In this document: piece after piece, positions 41,463-46,702 of the stretch
Numbering within the stretch: the first letter of the stretch is position 1
Layout of the letters: every line of letters starts with the position of its first letter
Assembly (NCBI RefSeq): GCF_041435115.1
Contig: NZ_CP108046.1
Location: forward strand, 682,001 to 746,000
Direction: 5' to 3'
Source: Streptomyces sp. NBC_00289
GTDB lineage: Bacteria; Actinomycetota; Actinomycetes; Streptomycetales; Streptomycetaceae
DNA: 64,000 bases
The notes under the pieces: generated by a model
What the model was told of the DNA's origin: nothing
Seen by the model: only the letters and a program-made list of their open reading frames with translations
The model's database searches: none
Program-made: the position numbers and the translations under genes

Positions 41463-41955
41463 CGTGGCATCAGAGGCCCGCCTCCCAGGCAGCCCCGGAC
41501 CGCTTGTCCGCTCCTCTGGTGGCGGCGAGTTCCAGCCGGGGCATCACGGCTTCAAGCGCCTCGACGGCTTGTGATCGCCGGCCCACACCTCGCGCTGCCT
41601 TCTCAGGTGAGCAAAGTGAGTCTCCCTATGACAAGGCGCTATCGCTCGATTCAGCGATGGCGCCACACCTGTCGTGCCGGATATCCTCAACGACACCGAC
41701 GCTGAGCTGCACTGAGTCATCGAACTCCGCCTCGCGCTACACCTCTTACCCCAGAGAAGCCCCTGTGCCAGTGGTGCCTGGCCACCGTTCAGAAGAACTG
41801 GGGCACCAGCGTCCGCTTCACCAGCAACCGACCGTAGACACCTGCTGGCACATGGTTCGACGGCGTCCGGCTGGAGGATCCATCTGCGGAGCGGTTGTGA
41901 CACGACCGGGTGAAGACTGCACCATCGCAGAACCTCCGCGGCCGCCCACACGTAT
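41463..41955. other. Intergenic stretch before the first DUF6207 gene
   Basis: No gene is recognised in this 493-base stretch. Its last 40 bases (GCAGAACCTCC onward) resemble the sequence before the second DUF6207 copy at 46185, so they belong to the duplicated unit. Confidence 0.5.
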
Positions 41956-42172
41956 GCCCTGCATGGGACCGATCAACGAAGCACATGTGCAACAGCCGGG
42001 ACTGGCCGTGGTGGAGATCGCTGCGGAGGACGACCAGACCGCCCTTGCCGTCCAGGAACTGCTCGCCACACGGTGGGCGACCGCAACAACCGACCGCACG
42101 ACCCGAGATCCCGGACAGCCCGGCGTCCGGCTGCGCTGCTACCTCGACGTCCGCCAGGAGCTCACCACCTAG
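41956..42172 (+). CDS. DUF6207-type small protein, copy 1
   Basis: ATG at 41956 or 41965 opens a frame of 68-71 residues: INEAHVQQPGLAVVEIAAED, DQTALAVQELLATRWATATT and TRDPGQPGVRLRCYLDVRQE. The pattern PGLxVVxIxAxDxxT, L-x-x-RWAT and DPGQPGVRxRxY is characteristic of the Streptomyces DUF6207 family, whose function is unknown. No clear ribosome-binding site precedes it. A paralogue lies at 46219. A candidate RNA lies 1.25 kb further on, on the far side of a broken ligase gene. Confidence 0.75.
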
Positions 42173-42303
42173 CACCGGACAACGCGAGGCCAGCAAGGTC
42201 CCGCAGGGCGCCGACCTGCCGTGGTCTGCGGAGGCCAGGTCACGGTCCGAGGTGCGCACACCGCCCGGATTGCGGACAGACGATCTTGGTGAGACATGGG
42301 CCT

Positions 42304-43373
42304 GTGACCTGGACGCCGCCAGAGCCGATGCTCGCCGCCCGCGTGCCCGACCCCACTCTGCGGCCCGGGTGGGCCGCGGAGCCGAAGTGGGACGGCTTCC
42401 GGGCCCTGGTCTCCGTTGATGCGTCCGGGTCGTGCTGCGCTCGAGGCGCGGCACCGAGATGCTGCCGGCGTTCCCGGAGGTCAGGGCCGGGGCCGCGCAG
42501 CTGCCGGACGCGACCGCGCTGGACGGCGAGCTGGTCGTGTGGGACGCCGCGGGCCAGCCGCCTTCGAGCAGCTGCAGCACCGGCTCCAGCGTCGCGGCGC
42601 CCAGGCGGACCGGGCCGCGGGCGAGTGGCCGGCCCACTTCGTCGCCTTTGATCTGCTGCGGCTGTCGGGGACCGACACGAGCAGCTGGCCGTATTGTCGG
42701 CGCCGGGCCGCGCTGGACTCGGTGTTCGCCGACCGCCAGCTGTCGGAGCCGTGGGTGCTGTCCCCGACGACCACCGAGGCCGACACCGTCCGCGAGTGGC
42801 TGACGTGGTCGTCGGTCGGCATGGAAGGTGTGGTCTTCAAAATGCTCGAAGGCGCATACCGTCCGTCGGAGAGGGGCTGGCTGAAGTACAAACCGCGCGA
42901 GACGACCGAGGCGATCGTCGGCGCGGTCACCGGCACCCTCGCCGCCCCGCGCACCCTGCTGCTCGGCCGGTACGACGACACCGGTCATCTGCAGTACACC
43001 GGCGGCACCACCACCCTCACCCAGACGGCAAGCAGCACAGTCGCCGCGCTAATCGCCCTAGCTCAGCCCGGTCATCCGTGGACAGGCCGGTCGTTCTCCG
43101 CCGGGTGGGGCAGCCGCGAGAAGCTGGACATCATCCTGGTGAACCCCACGCTGAGGGTGGAAGTCGGCGTCGACGTCGCCCGGTATGCTGCCGACCGGTG
43201 GCGCCACCCCGCCCGCTTCCACCGTGCCCGCCCCGACCTCACCCCCACCGGAGGTCGCCGCCGCACTGGCGGCGGCACGCGGCGGCCTCGCGGACGCGGC
43301 TGAGTGCGCGTCCCCGCGGACAACCCTCCGACAATTGCGCTCGCTTGTCCCCCCGAACCCCGCAGCGCAGTGA
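42304..43373 (+). pseudogene. ATP-dependent DNA ligase (LigD-ligase-domain type), three frameshifts
   Basis: GTG 42304 begins MTWTPPEPMLAARVPDPTLR. The adenylation site EPKWDGFRALVSVDA (nucleophilic Lys in KWDG) follows. Frame breaks near 42428, 42555 and 43244 separate VVLRSRRGTEMLPAFPEV, ALDGELVVWDAAGQP, then AFEQLQHRLQRRG, SVGMEGVVFKMLEGAYRPSE, GWLKYKPRETTEAIVGAV and the OB-fold end DVARYAADRWRHPARFHRA. All core motifs are present in order. One missing base explains at least the first two breaks. It lies between the DUF6207 gene and its candidate RNA, unlike the second copy. Confidence 0.85.
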
Positions 43374-43383
43374 GCACGCGAAA

Positions 43384-43413
43384 CAGCCCCGTCCGAGATC
43401 CGGGACGGGGCTG
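43384..43413. terminator. 11-bp hairpin, bidirectional terminator
   Basis: CAGCCCCGTCC (43384-43394) pairs with GGACGGGGCTG (43403-43413). It lies directly after the ligase stop and 7 bases before the candidate RNA copy 1. Confidence 0.7.
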
Positions 43414-43420
43414 CATCGTA

Positions 43421-43524
43421 AGAACGTGGTCGTGAAGGGCGGTCGCCTACGCGGCGAAAGGCTCCATGAGGCTTCAGCCGAACGATCTTCCTCATGGGCT
43501 ATAGGTGAGGCCCGGGGACACTGT
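43421..43524 (+). ncRNA. Candidate structured RNA, copy 1
   Basis: This 104-base sequence is about 84% identical to 46599-46702 (17 differences counted by eye), and 9 of the differences fall in one stem. Here CCATGAGG (43464-43471) pairs with CCTCATGG (43490-43497). In copy 2 the same arms are CTGCAGGG and CCTTGCAG: four pairs are doubly changed and one becomes G-U. The 18-base loop keeps CTTCAGCCGAACGAT, and a 5' hairpin TCGCC-TACGC-GGCGA (43443-43457) is invariant. GGCT just 5' of the stem can pair with AGCC in the loop, a possible pseudoknot. The G-U pair favours the plus strand. I do not recognise it as a known family. Confidence 0.55.
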
Positions 43525-44050
43525 CCCCTCCATAACCACACCCTCTACAACCAGGACCCAGCCGCGGATGTTCCCGACCCAGGTGCCGGCCTTCGCAACG
43601 CTCCGGGATGCGCTCCTGGACCAACTGGCGCTCCAGCCCTCCGGACAAACGCCAGCCCTCACCGCTCAACTCGACCAACCGTCTCCTGGCCGAGCCCGGC
43701 GCCTGGGCAGAGGTCTTTCACACGTTCCAGCGCGCCATTGCACTCGCCGCCGGCGCCAACACCGACGGCCCTCTCGCTCTCGCCGTCTGGGCCGAAACGA
43801 CCCACGGCCCGACTTCGCCGAAGTCCCCCGGCTTGCTTTCCCTATCGCGTTTCCCGAGACCGGCCTCGGAAGGAGGACGTCTTGCGCCCAGCGGCTGGAA
43901 CCGGCCCGCGGCACTGACCGTTTCGAGTCGAGTCCGCCCACCACCGCTGATCGAGGAGGAGTCCGGGCAGCCGCCCATTGCTGCATTGCGCGGGGCGCGG
44001 AAAAAGTTCTGATGCAGTGGGACTGCCTGCCAGTGATATGCGCTGCTATC
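43525..44050 (+). pseudogene. Degraded reading frame of unknown type
   Basis: Several frames read in turn as protein-like: FATLRDALLDQLALQPSGQT, then NRLLAEPGAWAEVFHTFQRA and IALAAGANTDGPLALAVWAE, then DFAEVPRLAFPIAFPETG. This suggests a broken gene on the plus strand, but no family is recognised and the start is unclear. Confidence 0.3.
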
Positions 44051-44077
44051 TGCGTAGTGACGTCCGCCTTGCTGTGG

Positions 44078-44754
44078 TCAGGTCAGACCGAGGCTGCTGA
44101 GCGCGGTGGTCCAGTCGGTCACGATGGCCTGCTGCGCGGCGCCCAGGGTGATCTGGTGCTTGCCAGACGGCGGTGTGCAGCTTCGCCTCCACCGGGTCTT
44201 TCTTGTTGTTCACGCCGGAGCCGCTGCGGTGGCCGGGATCGGCCGGCTCCACCCACAGGTTGCGGTAGTCGTTGGGATCGCCACCCAACTGCAGGCTGAT
44301 CAGGTGGTCGTACTCCGCGTCGCCCATCCTGCCTGTGAAGCCGTAGGAGGCCGCATTGAGGGTCTTTTCCTTGCCGGTGACGTAAGTGGAGGGACGGATA
44401 CCGGAGGTGTAGCCGCCTTTGCAGCAGATCGTCGACTTCAGGTTCGCCTGCGTGACGGCCGGAGAGGTCGCACCGGGGGTGCAGGTCGGGTCTTCCAGCG
44501 GCTCACCGTGCTCATAACGGTAGGTGCAGGTACCGGCCCCCGGGCTGCTGCTGCACCGTGTACGTCTTCTGCGGGCCGGCGCCCACAGCGATCGACCGGA
44601 CGGACGCGCTGCCCGCCGCGGATCCCGTAGGCGTGCCCGCTGCCGGACTTGCGCTGCCGGCCCCGCCCAGGCCGCCGAGGGAGTCCGGGGAGCAGCCGGC
44701 CAGGAGCAGACATGTGAGCAGCACGGACGGTGCGGCGCGATGGGCGAAGTGCAT
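44078..44754 (-). pseudogene. Lipoprotein with HNH-like motif, two frameshifts
   Basis: ATG 44754 gives a lipoprotein signal (PSVLLTCLLLAGCSPDS, lipobox LLAGC). After a Gly/Ser/Ala linker the frame breaks in a G run near 44535 and resumes TCTYRYEHGEPLEDPTCTPG, VTQANLKSTICCKGGYTSGI and GDAEYDHLISLQLGGDPNDY then RNLWVEP. A second break near 44165 leads to HQITLGAAQQAIVTDWTTAL and SSLGLT. The DHL-x-x-L-x-LGG-(x)n-N-LW pattern resembles HNH-type nuclease cores, seen also in actinobacterial extracellular proteins. Two indels would have to be corrected for full length. Confidence 0.6.
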
Positions 44755-44948
44755 GACGATCCCTCAGCAGTGGGGAATAGCAGACGGGCAGATGCTCCCC
44801 TACCCGGCCATCGCCCCCCACGCGCGGGGTGGGACAGCACGCCCCGCAGAGCGGGAAAGGGAACCGGGTGAAAGCTGCGGTGCATGTCTTGGGCTGCTGG
44901 AGCGATCTGCAGCTACCTCCCCGGTAGGACCCTGTGGCGGGAGCGGTT

Positions 44949-44984
44949 GGGCGGCGCGCTGCCCGTCAGGGTGGCGCGCCGCCC
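44949..44984 (-). terminator. 11-bp hairpin downstream of the lamin-tail gene
   Basis: GGGCGGCGCGC (44949-44959) and GCGCGCCGCCC (44974-44984) are exact complements with a 14-base loop, 55 bases past the stop of the lamin-tail gene. Confidence 0.65.
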
Positions 44985-45038
44985 GGTGTGGCCGGTGGCT
45001 GACCTGTTGGTGGCGGTCACCGGCGGGGTGGGCGTGGG

Positions 45039-45545
45039 TCAGTGGCGGTTGCCGCCGTGGTGGCGGTCGTGGCCCCAGGAGACGGCGTCGACGAAGCGGT
45101 CGCGGTCGTTGCGCAGGGTTGCGGTGTCGGAGTGGTTGTCCCACACGTAGCTGCGGCGGTCTTGGTAGAGGTCGGTGTCGGTGTCGCGGCCCACGCCGGT
45201 GTGGATGCGGACGGTGTCGCGGCCCTCGAGCCAGAAGCGGTGCTGGAAGGTGTAGGTGTGGCCGTCCTCGTCCGACAGGGTCCAGCCGTCGAGGTTGACC
45301 GCGCGGCGGCCGGTGTTGGTGAGCTCCACCCACTCCTTGTTCAACGAGCGGTTGGAGCGGTCGTCGAAGCCCGGGGAGTTGTACTGCACATCGCTGATCT
45401 CCACCGCGGGACGGTGCGGACGGGCGTGGTCGGTGGCAGACGCCGGCAGCGCCACCGCCCCTACCAGGGCCCCGGCCGCGAGAGCGGCGGCGGCCAGACG
45501 GCGGGCGGTCACAGAAACGGAAACGGACACAGAGTCCCCTTGCAT
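45039..45545 (-). CDS. Secreted lamin-tail-domain protein
   Basis: 168 residues from ATG 45545 with GGGGAGGG upstream. A signal peptide ends near GAVALPASATDHA. The lamin-tail (LTD) domain follows: VEISDVQYNSPGFDDRSNRS, LNKEWVELTNTGRRAVNLDG and WTLSDEDGHTYTFQHRFWLE, ending VSWGHDRHHGGNRH. Secreted single-domain LTD proteins are frequent in Streptomyces; their role is unknown, perhaps in binding cell-wall or extracellular polymers. The His-rich tail could bind metal. Confidence 0.85.
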   Translation of the reverse strand: MQGDSVSVSVSVTARRLAAAALAAGALVGAVALPASATDHARPHRPAVEISDVQYNSPGFDDRSNRSLNKEWVELTNTGRRAVNLDGWTLSDEDGHTYTFQHRFWLEGRDTVRIHTGVGRDTDTDLYQDRRSYVWDNHSDTATLRNDRDRFVDAVSWGHDRHHGGNRH

Positions 45546-46184
45546 CGTGCGGGCACCCTCCCCCGGCGGCCCAGACGGGGGCGCCGAACAGGAACTGGTG
45601 CGGAGTGTGGGTGACGGCCGGTTTCGACCGCCACCCGCACTCTGTCCACTCCGCGACGCAGATGTGCAGAAAACAGGGCCTCGGTTACCTATTGCCCATA
45701 TTTCCGTGACTGTTGGATGCAGTGTCCATTTACGTCCTGCATGCTCGAGTTGACGAGCCAACAGCACGTGCATTCCTTCCGCACCTTGAGCTGCAGCTGC
45801 TGAACTCCGCACCACCAGAGGCGGCCCGCCACCCGAAAGTGAGTAACAGCAGGGCAGCGACATCGCCACGTCGACAGAGAGATTCCGTGGTGCCTGGCGG
45901 TGGGTGACCGGAGCGCGGCGGCGTCGTTGAACGGGATGCATCACCATTCGCCCCCCACGGGTGCAAGGCGGTAGAGGGTCCGCCCTGTGTCGGCAGACCC
46001 TCTGCCGCTCCGGACGCGGGTTCCGAGGCACCGCAGGCTGAGCTGGCTGGAGATTCCTGTGCCCGCGGCGTGCAGCCCAGGTCATCGCACAATGGGACCC
46101 GAAGGTGCCTCCACACCTGACCGGACCTTCCGGGCCGATCTGCCCGAGCCGCCCGCACACGGCCGGGCGAAGCGGCCCCGGCCG
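45546..46184. other. Intergenic stretch, no gene recognised
   Basis: This 639-base stretch separates the lamin-tail gene from the second DUF6207 unit. A moderately AT-rich patch near 45690-45760 may hold the promoter of the lamin-tail gene. I found no frame with both coding-like codon use and a recognisable sequence. Confidence 0.4.
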
Positions 46185-46218
46185 CAGAACCTCCAGGCGT
46201 GCGGGAACGGCTGGCCTT

Positions 46219-46424
46219 GCATGGGACCCGATCAACGAAGTGCACGTGCAACAGCCAGGGCTGGCCGTGGTGGAGATCGCGGCAGACGACGAGCAGACCC
46301 GCTTCGCCATCCAGGAACTGCTCGCCACACGGTGGGCGACCGCCACGGACCGCACGACCCGGGACCCGGGGCAGCCCGGCGTCTGGCTGCGCTGCTACCT
46401 GTACACCAGGAGCTCAACACCTAG
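46219..46424 (+). pseudogene. DUF6207-type small protein, copy 2, frameshifted
   Basis: ATGGGACCCGATCAAC has one more C than copy 1, which throws the start out of frame; downstream the other frame reads INEVHVQQPGLAVVEIAADD, EQTRFAIQELLATRWATATD and TRDPGQPGVWLRCYLYTR. It is clearly paralogous to 41956-42172, including upstream GCAGAACCTCC and downstream ACCTAGCACCGGAC. A second indel lies near the 3' end. Confidence 0.65.
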
Positions 46425-46554
46425 CACCGGACAGCACGAGGCCGGCGAGGTCCTGAAGCCCCGCTCCCCTCGTGCCGCCGCTGGCCGCCATAGCCGCAGT
46501 CGCAACTTGCGGGTGTTGCCCTCCGACCAACGACCGCAGCCCACAGCCCACACA

Positions 46555-46597
46555 CGCGTGTGGCTCCGGCCGGGTTCCCCGGCCGGAGCCACACGCG
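46555..46597. terminator. Perfect 20-bp hairpin terminator
   Basis: CGCGTGTGGCTCCGGCCGGG (46555-46574), loop TTC, and its exact complement (46578-46597). It stands between DUF6207 copy 2 and the candidate RNA copy 2, in the same relative place as the hairpin at 43384. Confidence 0.85.
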
Positions 46598-46598
46598 A

Positions 46599-46702
46599 AG
46601 AGCGTGGTCGTGATGTGCGGTCGCCTACGCGGCGAAAGGCTCTGCAGGGCTTCAGCCGAACGATGGTCCTTGCAGGCGAGAGGTGAGGCCCGGGGACAGT
46701 GT
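46599..46702 (+). ncRNA. Candidate structured RNA, copy 2
   Basis: Paralogue of 43421-43524. The stem is CTGCAGGG (46642-46649) with CCTTGCAG (46668-46675), enclosing an 18-base loop that keeps CTTCAGCCGAACGAT. On the minus strand the G-U pair would be an A-C mismatch, so the plus strand is the more likely sense. It ends GGTGAGGCCCGGGGAC like copy 1, and is followed directly by the degraded HTH-like gene at 46699. Confidence 0.55.

Follow-up and report, generated by a model that had tools for sequence, protein, structure and literature searches.

A candidate family of stress-promoter small RNAs spread through the class Actinomycetes, recognized from two repeats in Streptomyces sp. NBC_00289

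Ms1 RNA (scr3559 in Streptomyces coelicolor) is a structured small RNA of about 230 nucleotides (nt), found in many actinobacterial genera and encoded at a single place, between SCO3558 and SCO3559 (PMC9130861; here and below, the literature is drawn on in excerpts of the cited papers). Another actinobacterial RNA with C-rich stretches, 6C RNA (RF01066), carries two hairpin loops with runs of about six cytosines. The scr1434/sar6912/svr1031 RNA and other Streptomyces small RNAs (sRNAs) are likewise conserved and intergenic (PMC3765725; PMC2422843, Table 1). Here we analyze a pair of repeats in a 64,000-nt stretch of Streptomyces sp. NBC_00289 (contig NZ_CP108046.1, positions 682,001 to 746,000), referred to as the window and numbered from its first base. 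In the explanation that we favor, the repeats are two copies of a minus-strand gene for a small noncoding RNA whose family is spread through the class Actinomycetes; the RNA would be driven by stress sigma factors, act in trans, and bind a conserved partner. We put the probability of this explanation as a whole at roughly 60%.

The segments 43400-43524 and 46578-46702 align over 125 nt with 79% identity. The original prediction had compared 104 nt of each (43421-43524 with 46599-46702) and reported 17 differences, 9 of them within one compensatory stem. Both counts were reproduced exactly, and the stem, called P2 below, is real; the loop core, described as 18 bases long, counts 15 letters as printed. 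Used as a BLAST query, the second copy returned the first at 1.3e-25 and four more copies from the same genome, the weakest match being a truncated copy at 2.8e-8. The exact 17-mer core was present in 59 of 121 Streptomyces-genus genomes, as opposed to zero in all 121 for the reversed control. By these BLAST values and counts, the repeat is far from chance. On the 10.6-Mb main contig of the strain there are six copies: besides the pair in the window, full copies lie near 1.66, 1.92, and 9.76 Mb, and the truncated one is at 9.85 Mb. Four of the six look complete; the other two, one of them copy 2 of the window, look decayed.

A search for further copies, suggested in the original prediction, found many. 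The exact 17-mer occurred at 155 loci, from which eight chance matches (L057, L059, L073, L096, L112, L146, L150, and L164) and two truncated elements (L030 and L082) were dropped. The remaining 145 loci contain duplicates, the genome collections being overlapping; 137 are distinct when flanks are included, and context counts keep the duplicates. A set of 136 distinct rows less L001 and L006 left 134, and the 66 rows below 90% identity formed alignment A2, the basis of covariance model R1. This model detected the RNA in 60 of 101 Streptomyces-genus genomes at E≤1e-4, with one to seven copies per genome. Successive models with wider reach (R2 and R3) were used thereafter; alignments A3 and A4 comprise 52 matches apiece, drawn from 51 and 46 selected loci, respectively. 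With strict filters and a threshold of E≤0.02, matches within the class Actinomycetes came from 111 of 394 genomes, representing 49 of 137 genera. When a sample spread evenly over the class was searched at E≤0.01 with more sensitive filters, 26 of 40 genomes had a match, in 23 of 35 genera, the strain's own genome counted. Two phylum-wide draws, which overlap in genomes and each count the strain's own, gave 11 of 346 genomes (long-form-only model, with a single short form among them) and 16 of 376, all within the class. In a set chosen for weak or no earlier matches, 22 of 35 genomes matched, which is a biased rate. The E-values are rough: 1 of 27 weak matches (L265; E 5.3e-5) lacks any motif and is a chance match.

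The RNA is organized as a three-way junction of stems P1, P2, and P3 with a nearly invariant unpaired CCCCGGG, and it occurs in two forms that have P1, CCCCGGG, and P3 in common. In the long form, P2 carries a large conserved loop around GAUCGUUCGGCUGAAG; this form is found in Streptomyces and others, the named records among the matches listed being Streptomyces, Actinacidiphila, Actinomycetospora, and a Pseudonocardiales bacterium. The short form has a P2 of about GCCGCUNCGAGCGGC. Alignment A5 of the short form comprises 35 matches assigned by eye, with L250 (near-identical to L248) and L265 excluded. CCCCGGG is kept in 64 of 66 rows of A2 and in all 35 rows of A5. The P3 loop is of the GNRA type in 47 of 66 long-form and 35 of 35 short-form sequences; 17 of the 66, the window's included, have a five-base loop. 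One Streptomyces-genus genome without a long-form match (G088) has the short form (L259), and four others covered by the same search (G002, G004, G008, and G010) carry neither form.

Covariation in these alignments was strong. The long form showed 217 double-changed cells against 71.0 in shuffles, a value that none of 500 shuffles reached, and against 27 to 51 with slid partners. Double changes affected 17 of 29 pairs, 11 in P1, six in P2, and none in P3, where the inner four pairs are nearly invariant and the outermost is unpaired in 19 of 66 sequences. The short form showed 72 double-changed cells against 24.8 in shuffles (0 of 500) and 11 to 35 with slid partners. Selection on RNA structure, which the original prediction had invoked and proposed to check with covariance models, is thus supported, and we have next to no doubt that the repeats belong to a structured RNA family.

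Two other ideas about the sequence were rejected. The covariation and one-base indels in the loop argue against a coding origin. Of the three frames on the RNA strand, one is closed in 66 of 66 sequences and the others are open in 50 and 45; on the opposite strand, the frames are open in 36, 11, and 52 of 66. Such counts have little meaning in GC-rich DNA. A pseudoknot between GGCU and AGCC, a feature of the earlier model, shows no covariation and breaks in 13 and 5 of the 66 sequences at two of its four pairs; an extension of P2 (GC/GC) holds in 66 of 66.

G-U pairs on the true strand of an RNA appear as A-C on the other, and therefore their counts tell the strand. Read as the minus strand, the long form has 83 G-U against 45 A-C and the short form 52 against 17. 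Together with the promoter and the orientation of the hairpin described below, these counts favor the minus strand over the plus strand read at first; that the RNA is transcribed from the minus strand and from its own promoter is highly probable.

Ahead of P1, GGAA[CT]-N17-19-GTT was found in 134 of 145 elements (113 with GGAAC and 21 with GGAAT), 131 of them with an 18-base spacer. With duplicates removed, 126 of 137 elements had the promoter, 123 with the 18-base spacer. The pattern occurred in 77 of 20,000 random windows of 55 nt (0.385%). Thus, most long-form copies carry an extracytoplasmic function (ECF)-type stress promoter (GGAAY-N17/18-GTT). Its −35 GGAAY, −10 GTT, and 17-to-19 spacing are those of SigR/SigH/SigE promoters: the consensus is GGAAT-N18-19-GTT for S. 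coelicolor SigR (PMC9205884), GGAAYR-N17-GTT for Mycobacterium tuberculosis SigH (PMC4803200), and GGAAC-N17-18-cGTT for Corynebacterium glutamicum SigH/SigE (PMC10012870). The RNA is not named in the excerpts of these three papers. By this likeness, control by a stress sigma factor in Streptomyces would be quite probable. Control by sigma E may also be possible, since S. coelicolor sigma-E sites have an 18-bp spacer in 59 of 100 cases and a −35 element resembling GGAACTT (PMC10771440). Among the A4 matches, 45 of 52 fit the wider rule GGAAN-N16-20-GTT or GTC, and 17 of the 27 weak matches have GGAAN-N17-19-GTT. The ten without it include the chance match L265; of the remaining nine, seven carry a TANNNT box at the corresponding position, a pattern present in 2.9% of random windows from the same loci. 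With TANNNT in place of the stress motif, the driver of the RNA seems to have changed between lineages while its start stayed. At the other end, 86 of 133 distinct long-form elements are followed within 80 nt by a perfect stem of at least 8 bp, as opposed to 28 of 600 random windows. The features of the two window copies are collected in Table 1.

Table 1. Positions of the predicted RNA features in the window
Feature	Position	Strand	Basis
Copy 1, predicted RNA gene from P1 start to end of terminator-like hairpin, about 155 nt (predicted ends)	43386..43540	-	Family alignment, covariation, promoter and hairpin positions, fold
Copy 1, promoter: GGAAC (43574-43570), 18-base spacer, GTT (43551-43549)	43549..43574	-	Pattern GGAA[CT]-N17/18-GTT
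Copy 1, P1 5' strand, 14 nt, partner 43426-43439	43526..43539	-	Covariation
Copy 1, P1 3' strand	43426..43439	-	Covariation
Copy 1, unpaired segment CCCCGGGCCTCACC	43504..43517	-	CCCCGGG conservation in A2 and A5
Copy 1, hairpin P2 (the compensatory stem), arms 43490-43499 and 43461-43471, conserved loop	43461..43499	-	Covariation
Copy 1, hairpin P3 (TCGCC-loop-GGCGA)	43443..43457	-	Family alignment
Copy 1, terminator-like hairpin	43386..43411	-	26-nt inverted repeat, then TGTTTCG on the minus strand
Copy 2, degenerate; keeps P2, P3, CCCCGGG segment, and P1 3' strand	46604..46695	-	Sequence comparison
Hairpin past copy 2 with a perfect stem of 20 bp, which also lies downstream of the DUF6207 gene convergent with it	46555..46597	-	Inverted repeat

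Read along the minus strand, copy 1 presents GGAAC-18-GTT, the first P1 arm (starting 9 nt past GTT), CCCCGGGCCTCACC, P2, P3, the second P1 arm, the 26-nt hairpin, and TGTTTCG. Its fold was predicted at −69.5 kcal/mol, with a z score of −2.95 against shuffles. The 104 bases recognized originally are the inner part of this element, seen from the opposite strand; neither the outer stem P1 nor the CCCCGGG segment had been noticed. Copy 2 has lost the P1 5' strand, unrelated sequence taking over before that arm is reached, and a pattern scan upstream of it (L001) found no GGAA[CT]-N17-19-GTT. The covariance model scored copy 2 at 76 bits, as opposed to 115.6 to 124.1 bits for the four complete copies of the strain. 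A fifth changed pair, reported as going from A-U to G-U, is G-U in copy 2 if the plus strand is read, but the inferred RNA strand has an A-C mismatch there, and it falls in the copy without a promoter. The strong hairpins said to precede both copies exist, but what lies before a copy on the plus strand lies after it, on the 3' side, on the inferred strand.

No family in Rfam 15 reached its cut-off on the element, as had been surmised: the window had 0 matches at the gathering score. In scans of eight loci (E≤5) and 14 divergent loci (E≤1), the sole match touching the conserved part was a weak one to 6C RNA at L052 (E 3.9; 30.3 bits, below the cut-off of 47), with none at the other seven loci of the E≤5 scan. 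It covers part of P3 and P1 and the hairpin behind them, but not the CCCCGGG segment or P2, and, unlike those of 6C RNA, the P2 and P3 loops of the present RNA are not runs of cytosines. The RNA also differs from Ms1 as excerpted above: it is about 90 to 160 nt long, often multicopy, found in other contexts, and mostly preceded by ECF-type promoters. The place and length expected of a 6S or Ms1 RNA were not found; there are 122 model positions before the terminator-like hairpin, and the contexts are several. A HAD-like gene lies near 34 of 145 loci, recognized by type and not by comparison with SCO3558. The scr1434 RNA has a very stable stem-loop with a C-rich loop and is set beside the present RNA by description only. 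In the parts of the actinobacterial sRNA literature consulted, supplementary sRNA tables aside, the family was not found by name, nor is the RNA shown in the main-text excerpts of PMC9130861, PMC10771440, PMC6344877, PMC11678152, PMC8388888, PMC4046766, PMC4109619, PMC3765725, and PMC2422843. Its transcript may well have been detected earlier under an anonymous name, scr1434/sar6912/svr1031 being one unconfirmed candidate. The apparent novelty lies in recognizing a family that spans the class and has a stress promoter.

Genomic context was assessed by tblastn with four marker genes around the loci: a DNA polymerase X/PHP-like gene and a HAD-type hydrolase gene before the RNA, and short-chain dehydrogenase and epimerase genes behind it. 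At least one of the four was found at 55 of 61 loci with a CCACAGG-type P2 but at 1 of 25 with the CCATGGGG type. In that order, 146 of 148 marker placements were on the RNA strand, the exceptions being two polymerase-like placements. Elsewhere the neighbors vary, and downstream genes differ between lineages. Riboswitches and attenuators would be expected to have a constant downstream gene family; the context here was constant in one Streptomyces subtype only. At 6 of 28 loci (22 of the 28 short form), the nearest gene-like frame on one side encodes an uncharacterized protein of about 200 amino acids (L180, L240, L242, L244, L249, and L257, all with the short form); two members scanned had no Pfam or NCBIfam match.

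Several observations concern individual loci. RNA copies stand in tandem, two or three together, at L226, L230, L232, L237, and L151, each with GGAAN-N18/19-GTT except one of the two in L151. In G091 (one contig of 10.3 Mb), copies at C1:100953 and C1:10165577, both scoring 122.1 bits, are placed as mirror images about 0.1 Mb from the ends, perhaps in terminal inverted repeats. Shortly past the RNA in L065 (a Pseudonocardiales metagenome-assembled genome), L151, and L166 is a small gene with an MKGDR-type start and no obvious terminator in between; the L065 protein had no Pfam match, and a urease gamma gene is nearby in L065 (Pfam) and L166 (by eye). Use of the RNA as a leader may be possible at these three loci. 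At L179 and L216 (G317 and G623), a long-form RNA lies close upstream of one gene each, which we take to be formate-dehydrogenase-like.

In the window, DUF6207 genes (Pfam PF19711) at 41600-42169 and 46105-46419 (plus strand) lie one on the plus-strand upstream side of each copy. The original prediction had both copies follow such a gene, but a DNA ligase fragment at 42416-43300 separates copy 1 from its DUF6207 gene. The association was not seen as family-wide, DUF6207 not being part of the context at the other loci examined. The ligase gene (42073-43303, plus strand) seems frame-shifted, with a match to Pfam DNA_ligase_A_M (profile positions 90-204) in one frame and, in another, an EPKWDGFRA-like motif that presumably is a DNA ligase motif. 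Between the two RNA copies is a gene for a lamin-tail-domain protein (45042-45530, minus strand); at L104 in S. flaveolus, an RNA copy has a frame of similar appearance, judged by eye, at a distance of about 2.5 kb. Behind copy 1, three minus-strand frames scanned had no Pfam match, and the recognized gene is on the plus strand.

The same RNA gene could instead encode a trans-acting antisense RNA, which would use its unpaired C-rich CCCCGGGYYYCA to pair with mRNAs at G-rich ribosome-binding sites. This is the mode of action of 6C RNA and other C-rich RNAs that work independently of Hfq. The segment is rich in cytosines, the consensus leaves most of it unpaired, and few parts of the RNA are better conserved. 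Seeds of RNAs that pair with mRNAs are expected to drift over a whole class, whereas CCCCGGG hardly drifts. C-rich stretches in mycobacterial sRNAs have been discussed (PMC4109619). In the strain's genome, sites complementary to CCCCGGGCCTCAC with at most one mismatch showed no enrichment: they numbered 67, of which five belong to copies of the RNA itself, and the reversed control gave 58. The test is a weak one, confined to a single genome and a single 13-mer. The sole other exact site is antisense inside a 566-codon frame, protein kinase-like by eye. We regard antisense pairing as unlikely, though deserving of attention. A cis-acting leader, that is, an attenuator or riboswitch-like element for the gene behind, would have as its targets the short-chain dehydrogenase, the epimerase, the small protein before the urease genes, or the formate-dehydrogenase-like gene. 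The marker genes around the CCACAGG type and the small genes shortly past the RNA at L065, L151, and L166 speak for it; the near absence of this context from the CCATGGGG type, the change of downstream genes between lineages, and the frames without Pfam matches behind copy 1 speak against it and make it improbable. A plus-strand RNA with a loop pseudoknot is a very remote prospect: the stem pairs on that strand too, one copy 2 pair is G-U there, and the plus strand folds slightly more stably (z −3.29 versus −2.95), but the promoter, the hairpin orientation, the G-U/A-C counts, and the lack of pseudoknot covariation all oppose it. Least probable of all is the end of a mobile element or a spreading palindrome duplicated in the chromosome arms. 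It would fit the six copies in the arms of this genome and the up to seven per genome elsewhere. However, P1 varies in sequence between copies with its pairing kept, four complete copies have their own promoters, the family is common to a bacterial class, and no transposase was found among five window proteins scanned. Neither of the origins named at the outset as refuting a structured RNA, coding sequence or insertion sequence, found support in these tests.

Several points weigh against the explanation that we favor, a stress-driven, trans-acting RNA with a conserved partner. Counted by pairs, a weak measure, covariation is less striking: 17 double-changed long-form pairs compare with 14.4 in shuffles (24 of 500 reach 17) and 15 when slid by one, and 12 of 24 short-form pairs compare with 8.6 (9 of 500). 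The invariance of the loop in A2 is partly by construction, since the exact 17-mer used for retrieval spans the P2 loop together with one strand of its two innermost pairs; P1 and the remaining P2 pairs are independent of it. Long-form P3 taken alone reverses the strand signal, with 2 G-U against 16 A-C, nearly all at the outermost pair. Stress control is not universal, as 10 of 27 weak matches lack GGAAN-N17-19-GTT, and a perfect 8-bp stem is missing behind 47 of the 133 long-form elements. The marker context of 55 of 61 loci, with an oxidoreductase and an epimerase gene behind the RNA, leaves room for a leader role there. Transcription is predicted from sequence signals, and the binding partner is proposed from conservation.

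In the mechanism that we propose, a SigR/SigH- or SigE-type sigma factor would turn the RNA on under thiol, heat, or envelope stress. Action in trans appears likely because the neighbors vary and many long-form copies end in a terminator-like hairpin. With less certainty, the RNA may work by using its invariant junction and hairpins to bind a conserved partner, be it a protein or a ribonucleoprotein, and not by base pairing to many mRNAs, because CCCCGGG and the short-form P2/P3 stems hardly change across the class; we would rate this step slightly below an even chance. A conserved partner or a compact fold would account for this constancy more readily than would base pairing to many mRNAs. 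A bolder version, which we consider doubtful, is an ancient Actinomycetes RNA under a stress sigma factor that binds core machinery, such as RNA polymerase, the ribosome, or an RNA-binding protein. By analogy, and with the same doubt, it might be to thiol or envelope stress what 6S and Ms1 are to stationary phase. Pairing with rRNA was considered and rejected: GTCAGGCCCGGGG occurs six times in the genome, and two places examined share nothing beyond it and have no Rfam match.

To our knowledge, few studies have addressed control at the RNA level in the SigR/SigH stress response of Actinobacteria. According to the excerpts consulted, no Hfq homologue is present in C. glutamicum and other Actinomycetales (PMC4046766) or in mycobacteria (PMC4109619). 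The family described here would be a new entry for RNA catalogues, and the covariance models together with the clear promoter make its sigma dependence testable. If our explanation is true, a class-wide RNA with a stress promoter would constitute a testable RNA arm of the SigR/SigH response.

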